From Candidatus Tectimicrobiota bacterium (GTDB lineage: Bacteria > JACPSX01), in NCBI GenBank assembly GCA_016193065.1, contig JACPSX010000171.1:1-5569 (forward strand): 5,569 nt of DNA. The letters are read 5' to 3'. The position numbers were made by a program, and so were the translations under genes. Of this stretch, positions 2,185 to 5,515 are shown in pieces; the first letter of the stretch is position 1, and every line of letters begins with the position of its first letter. Under the pieces are notes generated by a model, which was given only the letters and a program-made list of their open reading frames with translations, was not told the origin of the DNA and ran no database searches.

Positions 2185-2238
2185 GAGAACCTAGACACCA
2201 CATCCTAGCCGGTTCCTGAAAGCCATGGGCAGTTCCCG
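2121..2238 (+). promoter_or_regulatory. Alternative pairings of the trp leader RNA (attenuation switch)
   Basis: Several mutually exclusive helices can be drawn. (a) CCGGCTGC at 2123-2130 pairs perfectly with GCAGCCGG at 2161-2168, extendable to 2133:2158 with one G-U; it includes the first Trp codon. (b) AACCGGCT at 2121-2128 also pairs perfectly with AGCCGGTT at 2207-2214. (c) 2148-2160 pairs with 2226-2238 over 13 positions (GGGAATTGCCC with GGGCAGTTCCC, plus one pair at each end), with two G-U wobbles. (d) GAACC 2187-2191 pairs with GGTTC 2211-2215. Helix (c) invades the first terminator and would be the antiterminator; (a) and (b) would be blocked by a ribosome stalled at the Trp codons. 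No folding energies were computed. Confidence 0.65.
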
Positions 2239-2256
2239 AGAGCACATGGCTTTTTT
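2219..2256 (+). terminator. First intrinsic terminator of the trp attenuator
   Basis: AAAGCCATG at 2219-2227 pairs perfectly with CATGGCTTT at 2245-2253, followed by a run of six T (2251-2256). The 17-base loop contains most of the segment that pairs with 2148-2160. No plus-strand gene other than the leader peptide lies within 800 bases upstream, so its only evident job is to stop the trp leader transcript. Confidence 0.75.
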
Positions 2257-2285
2257 GTTGGGCGGCACAACCGGAAAAAGCCATG
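2245..2285 (+). promoter_or_regulatory. Cross-terminator helix (predicted second antiterminator)
   Basis: The 3' arm of the first terminator (CATGGCTTTTT, 2245-2255) is perfectly complementary over 11 bases to the 5' arm of the second (AAAAAGCCATG, 2275-2285). The intervening loop can form a small GTTG/CAAC hairpin (2257-2260 with 2268-2271). This helix cannot coexist with either terminator. Its use in the cell is inferred. Confidence 0.55.
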
Positions 2286-2311
2286 GAAAGCAGATCCCAT
2301 GGCTTTTTTTT
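2275..2311 (+). terminator. Second intrinsic terminator of the trp attenuator
   Basis: AAAAAGCCATGG at 2275-2286 pairs perfectly with CCATGGCTTTTT at 2297-2308, a 12-bp stem with a 10-base loop, followed by eight T (2304-2311). It is the stronger looking of the pair and ends 29 bases before the trpE start. The stem is nearly symmetric and could also act on the minus strand, but no minus-strand gene needs it here. Confidence 0.85.
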
Positions 2312-2340: not shown

Positions 2341-3816
2341 ATGACGCCATCGTTTTCTGAATTTTGCCGGCAGGCCCGCCGGGGGAACCTGATCCCCGTC
2401 TACCGGGAGGTACTTGCCGATCGGGATACACCTGTTTCCGCATTTTTGAAACTGGATGGGAAGCCGTATCGCTTCCTGCTGGAGAGCGTGGAGGGGGGAG
2501 AGCGCTGGGCCCGCTACTCCTTCCTGGGGATGAATCCAATGCTCATGATTCGCAGCCTGGGCCCCGAGGCGGAAGTGTGGGAGGAAGGGGAATGGAGGCG
2601 GGTCTTGCTGGAGAAGGATCCCATGCATCTGGTCAAGGATATCCTGACCCGGTATCGTCCGGTCCCCTGCGAGGATCTTCCCCGTTTCTGGGGAGGAGCT
2701 GTTGGGTATCTGAACTATGACGTGGTCCGCTTTCTAGAAAAACTCCCCGGAACATCCCATGACGATCTGGGGTTGCCGGAGAGTTTTTTCATGGTGGGCG
2801 ACACCTTGCTGATTTTTGACAACGTGACCCACAAGCTCAAGGTGATTGCCCTGGCTTTTCTGGACGGCTCTCCACTTGAGGAGGTTTACGGTCGGGCCTG
2901 CGAGAGAATCGAGGAGGTGATTGTTCGGCTCCGCAAGGCTCCGGTTCCCGATGCGGCCCCGGTGTCCGCGGCCGGCCCCATGGTTTTGGAATCAAGTGTC
3001 AGCAAGAAGGAGTTTATGGACTCTGTGCTCCGGGCCAAGGAGTACATTGAGGCGGGGGACGTTATCCAGGTCGTGCTGGCCCAGAGGCTCGCCACGGAAA
3101 CCTCAGCCCCACCGTTTGACATCTACCGGGCGCTGCGCTCCATCAACCCCTCGCCGTATATGTACTTCCTGGATGTGGGGGAGTTCCACGTCATCGGAGC
3201 CTCTCCGGAGGTGCTCGTGCGCCTCGAAGATGGCTGGGCGGAGGTAAGGCCCATTGCCGGCACCCGGCGAAGGGGAGCGACCCCGCGTGAAGACGGGGAG
3301 CTGGAGCAGGAGCTGCGCAATGACCCAAAGGAACGGGCTGAGCACATCATGCTCGTCGATCTGGGCAGAAATGATGTGGGCAGGGTAGCGGAGGCGGGCA
3401 CGGTGGCCGTGGTGGAGCTGATGACGGTGGAGCGCTTCTCCCATGTGATGCACCTGGTCAGCCACGTGCGCTCGCGGCTGCGCTCCGGTGAGGATGGGTT
3501 TGGGCTCCTGAAGGCCTGCTTTCCGGCCGGCACCGTTTCCGGTGCTCCCAAAGTTCGGGCCATGGAGTTCATCGACGAGCTGGAGCCCGTCCGGCGGGGG
3601 CTTTATGCGGGCGGTGTCGGGTATTTCGGATTTTCAGGGAACATGGAGTTTTGCATCGCGATCCGCACCATCCTTCTGGTCGGCCAGAGGGCCTATGTCG
3701 GAGTTGGGGCGGGGATCGTGGCGGATTCGAATCCCGAGGCCGAGTACGAGGAGACCATGAACAAGGGAAAAGCTATGGTGGCGGCTTTGAAAATGGCGGC
3801 GGCGGGGCTGCTGTGA
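2341..3816 (+). CDS. trpE: Anthranilate synthase component I
   Basis: TrpE converts chorismate plus ammonia (delivered by TrpG) to anthranilate and pyruvate, the first committed step of tryptophan synthesis, in the cytoplasm. The 491-residue length is normal. The N-terminal domain has [16 protein letters not shown] (46-61); the LLES segment with S49 corresponds to the tryptophan feedback site. The chorismate-binding domain (about 220-485) shows PIAGTRRRG (304-312), [18 protein letters not shown] (328-345), FSHVMH (366-371, conserved active-site histidine), [19 protein letters not shown], and [11 protein letters not shown] (462-472) whose E468 and E471 fit the Mg2+ ligands. PIAGTR and the LLES site favour TrpE over PabB. 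The ATG at 2341 follows GAGGTG (2330-2335, five bases away). It is first structural gene of the operon, directly behind the attenuator; trpG starts eight bases after its stop. Confidence 0.96.
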
Positions 3817-3824
3817 GGAAAAGT

Positions 3825-4469
3825 ATGATTCTCGTGATTGATAATTATGACTCGTTCACCTATAACCTGGTCCAGTACTTCCAGGAACTGGGTGCTGAAG
3901 TCGTAGTCCGTCGCAACGATGCGATAACGCTGCCGGCCATACGGGCCTTGCCACTGGAAGGGATCGTTCTCTCGCCGGGCCCCCGGACTCCCGCAGAGGC
4001 GGGGATCACCCCCAAGGTAGTCTCTACCTTTGCCGGTACAATCCCCATTTTGGGGGTTTGCCTGGGGCACCAAGCCATCGGCTGGTGCTTTGGAGGCAGG
4101 ATTGGCCGGGCCAGGCGCCTGATGCACGGCAAAAAATCCACGATTAGTCACGACGGCAAGGGAGTCTTCCGGGGTCTGCCAAACCCTTTGGAGGCGATCC
4201 GCTACCATTCCCTGGCGATCCTGGAGGAAGGATTTCCTGACGAGCTCGAGATTACTGCGAGGTCCGAAGACGGGGAGATTATGGGGGTCCGCCATCGCTC
4301 GTTTCCCGTGGAGGGCGTCCAGTTCCACCCCGAATCGATCTTGACGGAGCGGGGCAAGGATTTGCTGGCCAATTTTCTGCACATGATCGAGATGTCTTCA
4401 TCACACGGAAGCCGGCACCCGCAAGGCGCGGGTACCCACGAAGCGGGTGCGGCAGGAGGAGGGGCATGA
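3825..4469 (+). CDS. trpG: Anthranilate synthase component II (glutamine amidotransferase)
   Basis: TrpG hydrolyses glutamine and passes ammonia to TrpE. The 214-residue product shows the class I amidotransferase signature: [11 protein letters not shown] (50-60) for the oxyanion region, [10 protein letters not shown] (77-86) with nucleophile C79, HGKKS (101-105), and VQFHPES (165-171) giving H168 and E170 of the triad. [15 protein letters not shown] is the usual N terminus, so the start is ATG 3825, behind TGAGGA that overlaps the trpE stop; the longer upstream open frame is just trpE read in another frame. The family usually ends near residue 190. Here a tail of about 25 Gly/Ala/His/Ser-rich residues (190-214) follows, encoded by GC-rich inverted repeats. 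The TGA overlaps the trpD start (ATGA), implying translational coupling. No pabA-specific context is seen, though such subunits can serve both TrpE and PabB. Confidence 0.95.
4415..4450 (+). repeat. GC-rich inverted repeats at the end of trpG
   Basis: GCACCCGC (4415-4422) is perfectly complementary to GCGGGTGC (4443-4450). Its core ACCCGC also pairs with GCGGGT at 4428-4433 around a five-base loop. The two foldings exclude each other. The element codes for the unusual TrpG tail and ends four bases before the trpD ribosome site AGGAGG (4454-4459), so it may influence trpD translation or mRNA decay. That role is inferred from position. Confidence 0.5.
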
Positions 4470-5515
4470 TTCTGGAGGCACTGCAGCGGGTTGTGGAGCG
4501 CAAGAACCTGACCCAGGAAGAGGCGGTCCTGGTCATGGATGAGATTATGTCGGGCAAGGCCACCGACGTTCAAATTGCCGCCTTTCTGGCGGCGCTGCGC
4601 ATGAAGGGAGAGACCGTAGAAGAACTGACCGGCTTCGCCCGGGTCATGCGGGAAAAGGTCGTTCCCATCCGGGCCGCCCACGAGGTGGCGGCCGGAGTGT
4701 CCGGTACGGAAAGGGAGCTTCTGGTGGACACGGCGGGGACCGGAGGGGATGCCCGGGGCACCTTCAACGTTTCCACGGCCACGGCCTTCGTGGCGGCCGG
4801 GGCCGGCCTGACGGTGGCCAAGCATGGCAACCGCTCCGTCTCCAGCCTGTGCGGCAGCGCCGACGTGATTGAAGCCATGGGGATCCACCTGGACATCACT
4901 CCTCAACAGGTCGGCCGGTGCATCGACGAGATCGGCATTGGATTTCTCTTCGCTCCTCTCCTGCACCTGGCCATGAAGTACGTCATGGTGGCCCGGCGCG
5001 AGATGCGGATCCGTACCGTCTTTAATATCCTCGGTCCCTTGACGAACCCGGCGAAAGCCGGGGCCCAGATCCTGGGAGTGTACGATGGCAACCTGACGGA
5101 GCCCATGGCTCAGGTTCTTCGGGATCTGGGCAGCAAGCGGGTCTTCGTCGTGCACGGAGACGATGGGCTGGACGAGATCTCAAATACAGGAAGGACCAAG
5201 GTTTCGGAAGTCCACGACGGCCAGGTGAAGACGTACTATGTGACCCCCGAGGACTTCGGGATGCAGCGCGCCACCATGGCGGACCTGCAGGGTGGGGATG
5301 TCAAGGACAATGCCCGCATCGTTTTAGACATTTTGCGGGGAGAGAAGGGACCCAAGCGGGATATCGTGTTGATCAACTCCGCAGCGGCTCTGGTGGCGGG
5401 GGGAAAAGCCCAGGATTTCCTGGAAGGAGCGGCCCTGGCGCGGGAGTCCATCGATTCCGGCGCCGCCATGGGAAAGTTCGAGGCCCTGCGCGCCCTCACC
5501 CAGAGTTTCAAGTAG
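4466..5515 (+). CDS. trpD: Anthranilate phosphoribosyltransferase
   Basis: TrpD transfers the phosphoribosyl group of PRPP to anthranilate, the second step of the pathway. The 349 residues are full length for the family. The N-terminal helical domain (1-70) precedes the nucleoside phosphorylase-like domain. Visible motifs are GTGGD (91-95) and NVST (101-104) for [13 protein letters not shown] (119-127), CGSAD (129-133), [14 protein letters not shown] (160-173), [13 protein letters not shown] (183-195) for anthranilate, and GDDGLDEIS (231-239) with D236/E237 as metal ligands. Positions 128-129 are Leu-Cys where Lys-Ser is common; the remaining motif is intact. The ATG at 4466 sits six bases after AGGAGG and overlaps the trpG stop by four bases. 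It is a stand-alone protein, not fused to TrpG as in enteric bacteria. Confidence 0.96.

Follow-up and report, generated by a model that had tools for sequence, protein, structure and literature searches.

How could a single leader peptide release an operon that lies behind two transcription terminators? The question is raised by a 5,569-nucleotide stretch of DNA (the window) whose plus strand carries three trp genes: trpE, for anthranilate synthase component I (2341–3816; TIGR00564, 551.7 bits against a cut-off of 517.7, and Pfam); trpG, for the anthranilate synthase glutamine amidotransferase (3825–4469; TIGR00566 and Pfam GATase); and trpD, for anthranilate phosphoribosyltransferase (4466–5515; TIGR01245, 420.5 bits, exceeding the cut-off).

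Ahead of trpE, on the same strand, stand two hairpins with the form of intrinsic terminators. The first, T1, is built from 2219–2230 and 2242–2253 (12 nt, 92% complementary; nine perfect pairs and then a bulge) and has a T-run at 2251–2256. The second, T2, pairs 2275–2286 with 2297–2308 (12/12 complementary) and has a T-run at 2304–2311. Numbering upstream elements as well, we call the four arms segments 3 to 6 (a to d): segment 3 is the 5' arm of T1 (2219–2230), segment 4 its 3' arm with the T6 tract (2242–2256), segment 5 the 5' arm of T2 (2275–2286) and segment 6 its 3' arm with the T8 tract (2297–2311), which ends 29 nt 5' of trpE; segments 3, 5 and 6 were each identified as part of an inverted repeat.

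The two hairpins can exchange strands. Over 2245–2255 the T1 3' arm is a perfect complement (11/11) of 2275–2285 in the 5' arm of T2, so that segment 4 doubles as the 5' arm of a predicted relay hairpin, a second antiterminator that spans 2245–2286 and has 16 pairs (2245–2260 with 2268–2286) in the full-length minimum free energy (MFE) structure. In this structure the hairpin is lengthened by spacer bases, GUUG at 2257–2260 with CAAC at 2268–2271, that are dispensable for either terminator. Segments 3 and 6 are complementary too (2219–2229 and 2296–2306, 11/11). An initial annotation of this DNA had numbered the four arms 1 to 4 and claimed the pairings 1:2, 3:4, 2:3 and 1:4, here 3:4, 5:6, 4:5 and 3:6; sequence reading and a repeat search bear out the coordinates and all four pairings. 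We do not count 3:6 as independent evidence, because it is a logical consequence once the other three hold. It is a by-product, which on equilibrium folding may serve as a back-up terminator stem.

The match between segments 4 and 5 is not a matter of chance. The T1 3' arm pairs with its own T2 arm at −16.8 kcal/mol, and none of the 5' arms of 112 unrelated terminators, taken from named loci away from trpE, does equally well (best −15.8, mean −6.6 kcal/mol). The arms are also near-copies of one another (2239–2256 and 2292–2309 are 89% alike in the repeat search), and tandem terminators are generally common. Both points favour a simpler reading in which the terminators are redundant duplicates: T1 would be regulated, T2 would be a leaky fail-safe with its own control or none, and the cross-complementarity would be left over from duplication. 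Duplication of one hairpin, as the initial annotation suggested, may have given rise to the pair. A T2 that was always active would, however, block the operon, and the comparative evidence given below makes us regard this redundancy as unlikely.

What might open T1? Upstream of it lies a short translatable reading frame (2085–2183) with a good ribosome-binding site, AGGAAGAGG (2074–2082). Its product, MGERSIHFRDRETGCWWVWRSGNCPAAGQGER* (...GCWWVWRS...), has the look of a trp leader peptide, with Trp codons clustered at 2130–2135 and 2139–2141 (WWVW). Such clustered Trp codons upstream of trpE, trpG and trpD are a feature of ribosome-mediated trp attenuators. Segment 1 (2123–2133) is complementary to 2158–2168 (inverted repeat, 91% over 11 nt). 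Segment 2 (2148–2168) can pair with segment 1 or, according to the inverted repeats and the MFE structure, with 2227–2238 and upstream as an antiterminator. The antitermination that the initial annotation had supposed upstream of T1 thus has a candidate: 2148–2159 is complementary to 2227–2238 at 11 of 12 positions, a score equalled by 3 of 400 shuffles; the pairing overlaps the T1 5' arm and is present in the MFE fold of the window. By computation, then, antiterminator and intrinsic terminator are mutually exclusive, a second feature of trp attenuators. Transcription may start near 2064, downstream of a candidate promoter at 2029–2057 (TTGACG, 17 nt, TACAAA; plus strand). This promoter was spotted by eye and is weak evidence; it is absent from the list of a promoter scan of the window, whose rule demands T at the final −10 position.

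The leader of the window is, in our judgement, likely a ribosome-stall (trp-type) transcription attenuator in which six mutually exclusive segments take the place of four and one stall relieves both terminators. From sequence and folding models we infer that the ribosome stalls, in what order the RNA folds and that transcription terminates, as follows. The pairings 1:2, 3:4 and 5:6 would terminate, and 2:3 and 4:5 would read through. With charged tRNA-Trp plentiful, the ribosome would pass the Trp codons and leave segment 2 masked or bound to segment 1; 3:4 would form and T1 would terminate, and polymerases leaking beyond T1 would meet 5:6 and stop at T2. With Trp short, the ribosome would stall at 2130–2141 and segment 2 would capture segment 3 (2148–2159 with 2227–2238). 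T1 would then be blocked and segment 4 freed to take segment 5 ahead of the synthesis of segment 6. Once 4:5 had formed, T2 would fail too and trpEGD would be transcribed. By this strand relay, one stall would relieve two serial terminators.

Folding of the leader is consistent with such a relay. The whole leader is more stably folded than expected (z = −3.25). At equilibrium the relay hairpin has a probability of 0.9–0.98 while the 3' arm of T2 is not yet made; because it can form before segment 6 exists, it should be kinetically favoured. In greedy kinetic folding of the window with a stalled ribosome, the antiterminator and the relay form and T1 and T2 are absent; with the ribosome at the stop codon, T1 and T2 form. 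When unrelated terminators stood in for T2, 7 of the 10 formed in spite of the stalled ribosome. The models also show where the balance is delicate. In the equilibrium calculation T1 can give way to the relay hairpin until segment 6 appears, also when no ribosome is stalled, so the back-up role of T2 would hinge on kinetics or on the 3:6 stem. Once segment 6 is made, either 5:6 or 3:6 precedes the T8 tract, and both are terminator-like. In the full-length stalled leader the relay and T2 are nearly equal in energy, P(T2) ranging from 0.19 to 0.88 depending on the mask. Applied to 45 other leaders, the crude greedy kinetic model let T1 form under the stall in 17; the antiterminator formed in 26, and 20 of these had the relay; we judged the method too noisy for these counts to serve as proof.

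Is the arrangement peculiar to this locus? The relatives that we compared come from outside the window's phylum, since the comparison genomes include none from it, and no TrpE closer than 58% to that of the window was found among the genomes searched. The same design is present in a Deltaproteobacteria metagenome-assembled genome (Zod_Metabat.1361, locus L046), with the stem core CCGTGGG where the window has GCCATGG. The class to which this genome belongs is represented by 85 genomes, 46 of them with a TrpE at the cut-off. We examined 42 trpE leader loci of this class; a Trp leader with matched T1 and T2 hairpins is present at 39. The exceptions are two loci at which no leader was seen (L131 and L141) and one with a single terminator before a second trpE copy (L149). 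At this last locus (G087:C27) the terminator is T2-like, and a Trp leader was not found within 450 nt.

A covariance model built from 37 leaders of this class, with the window excluded, matches the twin terminators of the window (E = 4e-6). The model matches 254 of the 395 genomes of the same phylum at E <= 0.01, the weakest of these matches being no proof of twins. The stronger loci retrieved nearly all have both hairpins and lie 5' of trpE, trpD or a TrpB-like gene. Weak matches were rejected as proof of twins; two of them, L197 and L206, are Trp leaders with one terminator. Single-terminator Trp leaders also precede trpE in other bacteria (L016, L027, L050, L056, L063, L088); like the window, these have a Trp-rich leader reading frame and an intrinsic terminator before trpE, but one terminator rather than two.

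What the sequences show directly are the segments, how they complement one another, that they are conserved and that leader peptides accompany them. The layered design, which the initial annotation had called not standard, is not unique to the window and recurs in the leaders of many other species. It had also pointed to covariation across homologous leaders as a check. The leaders compared have two hairpins and conserved 4:5 complementarity, both in the class and in further species of the phylum, which is the opposite of a single hairpin without such complementarity, the outcome that the initial annotation had named as counting against its proposal. This comparison supports, at the level of sequence, the proposal that the T1 3' arm captures the T2 5' arm once T1 is opened. 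Recurrence in so many species points away from a chance pattern and towards a textbook trp attenuator extended in an unusual way.

How well is the relay pairing itself conserved? We aligned 81 leaders (alignment A3), fitting them to T1 and T2 alone. The cross-pairing between the T1 3' arm and the T2 5' arm is intact in 92.3% of cells, a value equalled by 0 of 500 shuffles, and both partners have changed at 7 of its 10 pairs, in statistics that ignore kinship. With the partner slid along, the cross-pairing falls to 37–55%; the terminators themselves are 96.5% paired. Much of this agreement is plain conservation of the stem cores. When each leader's own T2 arm was set against the 112 unrelated terminator arms, it won at p <= 0.02 in 73 of 83 leaders and at p <= 0.05 in 80 of 83. 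The relay is imperfect in some leaders (L117, L226, L269a). Swaps of arms between trpE and aroF leaders within a genome were dropped as a test, as G-U pairs leave poor discrimination.

A second comparison of pairing energies bears on whether a relay is needed at all. Segments 3 and 5 have a common core, so segment 2 could to some extent pair with segment 5 directly and disable T2 by itself. A single segment 2 is, however, unable to hold segments 3 and 5 together, and in 80 of 82 leaders the segment-2 region binds segment 5 less strongly than the leader's own segment 4 does (means −10.7 and −19.8 kcal/mol). We therefore consider direct capture of segment 5 by segment 2 highly improbable, and favour passage of the signal through segment 4.

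Loss of the T1 U-tract allows a further comparison between the relay and redundancy. In 8 of 83 leaders (L120, L124, L127, L171, L173, L189, L235, L236) the T1 U-tract has been lost, and by its sequence such a T1 has probably ceased to terminate. The T1 stem (7–9 of 9 pairs) and a 7–13 bp cross-helix between its 3' arm and T2 nevertheless persist in all eight. This persistence fits a relay gate and not redundant terminators, for which decay would be expected. Redundant T2 stems should also drift, yet they match T1 across species whose TrpE proteins differ by ~30–50%. An opposite case was seen in one Trp leader (L195, G709), in which T1 is intact and T2 seemingly lacks a U-tract.

The design is not confined to trpE. 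Twin attenuators stand before trpD (L218, L219, L223, L224, L233, L236), before trpB-like genes (L226, L237) and, with Trp or Phe/Tyr leaders, before aroF (L191, L229, L239–L247, L260, L273–L278). The genome of the window itself has a second twin element (L238; G000:C201:2810-2933, minus strand) before a DAHP synthase gene (aroF). Its leader peptide, ...GAWRYFYCFYFTPVCPG (..WRYFYCFYF..), is rich in the aromatic residues W, Y and F, and its relay hairpin has an energy of −20.8 kcal/mol. Among aroF leaders from the phylum of L046, the encoded peptides are rich in Phe/Tyr (FYFYF, WRFYFIF, YYFWYFF) or in Trp; behind them again lie two terminators whose arms match, and the core is often the GCCATGG of the window.

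The stem cores follow the type of leader: those of Trp-type leaders are mostly CCGTGGG and those of Phe/Tyr-type aroF leaders mostly GCCATGG, with T2 generally matching T1. That T2 tracks T1 in this way is again at odds with redundancy. Conservation of sequence is in itself unusual for terminator stems, and could mean that a protein, whether a dedicated antiterminator or a NusA-like factor, binds the stem shared by T1 and T2 and acts on both hairpins. But the cores vary by leader type and by species while complementarity is retained, and a sensor is already there in the leader peptide; we give a protein site very little credence. If the relay is real, the stems would be conserved because each segment must suit two partners. 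It seems to us probable that domino-like attenuators with six segments are widespread, in which the parity set by one ribosome governs two terminators, T1 is sometimes a mere relay gate, and Trp as well as Phe/Tyr signals control trpE, trpD, trpB and aroF.

Attenuation is a textbook form of RNA-based control, usually drawn with four segments. In the classical trp attenuator of enterobacteria, worked out by Yanofsky, a Trp-rich leader chooses between a 2:3 antiterminator and a 3:4 terminator. The window is like it in its Trp-rich leader peptide, its stall-sensing segment 1 and its choice of 2:3 or 3:4 before trp genes; it is unlike it in having segments 5 and 6, whose hairpin adds a second terminator that 4:5 pairing links to T1. 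Rather than the four-segment layout with exactly one terminator, the window and most relatives examined have two terminators and six segments. Rfam matches in the window, taken to E = 10, include neither the Trp leader model (RF00513) nor a T-box; on one of the trpD leaders (L218), RF00513 matches the first part only (470–577; 31 bits, under the threshold of 41).

Two terminators behind one leader are not new. The ermK transcriptional attenuator of Bacillus licheniformis was reportedly described by Kwak et al. in 1991. As summarized in PMC4335068, one stall-sensing leader of ermK is followed by two adjacent Rho-independent terminators. On that description the window resembles ermK in placing a pair of adjacent terminators after a single leader peptide, and differs in having a Trp-rich leader before trpEGD where ermK has a macrolide-stalled leader before an rRNA methylase resistance gene. 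The initial annotation's remark that a layered design is not standard holds against the classical layout, with its one terminator; for a second terminator behind the same leader, ermK is a published precedent. In some Gammaproteobacteria, tandem terminators with a proposed antiterminator are also reported for the rimP leader (Naville and Gautheret 2010, PMC2965389); the gene and the motif are different, and the passage on rimP mentions no amino-acid leader peptide. We found no description of tandem-terminator attenuators of amino-acid operons, in Deltaproteobacteria, Geobacter or otherwise, in the open-access literature, so that the novelty of the design for such operons is a limited claim, set against that literature and general knowledge.

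A conserved six-segment form, if true, would matter in several ways. Two serial terminators would cut leak while a single sensor is retained, and switching could be passed along an RNA through strand exchange. It would also predict leaders whose T1 is a pure gate, and offer a modular part for RNA circuits.

The DNA upstream of the leader holds some further features. Within 1–1401, adjoining the trp operon, are a gene resembling that for the beta subunit of 4-hydroxybenzoyl-CoA reductase (TIGR03195, below cut-off) and the tail of an upstream reading frame that matches no Pfam family. On the minus strand, 1415–1912 is an open reading frame of 165 amino acids whose predicted product begins much like a signal peptide and contains a stretch of charged repeats (DRREIQRDRQELRKDKQELRED); it has no Pfam family, and its NCBIfam match is weak and below the cut-off. 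A strong inverted repeat at 1424–1468 (GCCAAGACCCTGATC / GATCAGGGTCTTGGC) is flanked by two convergent genes and is probably a two-way terminator.
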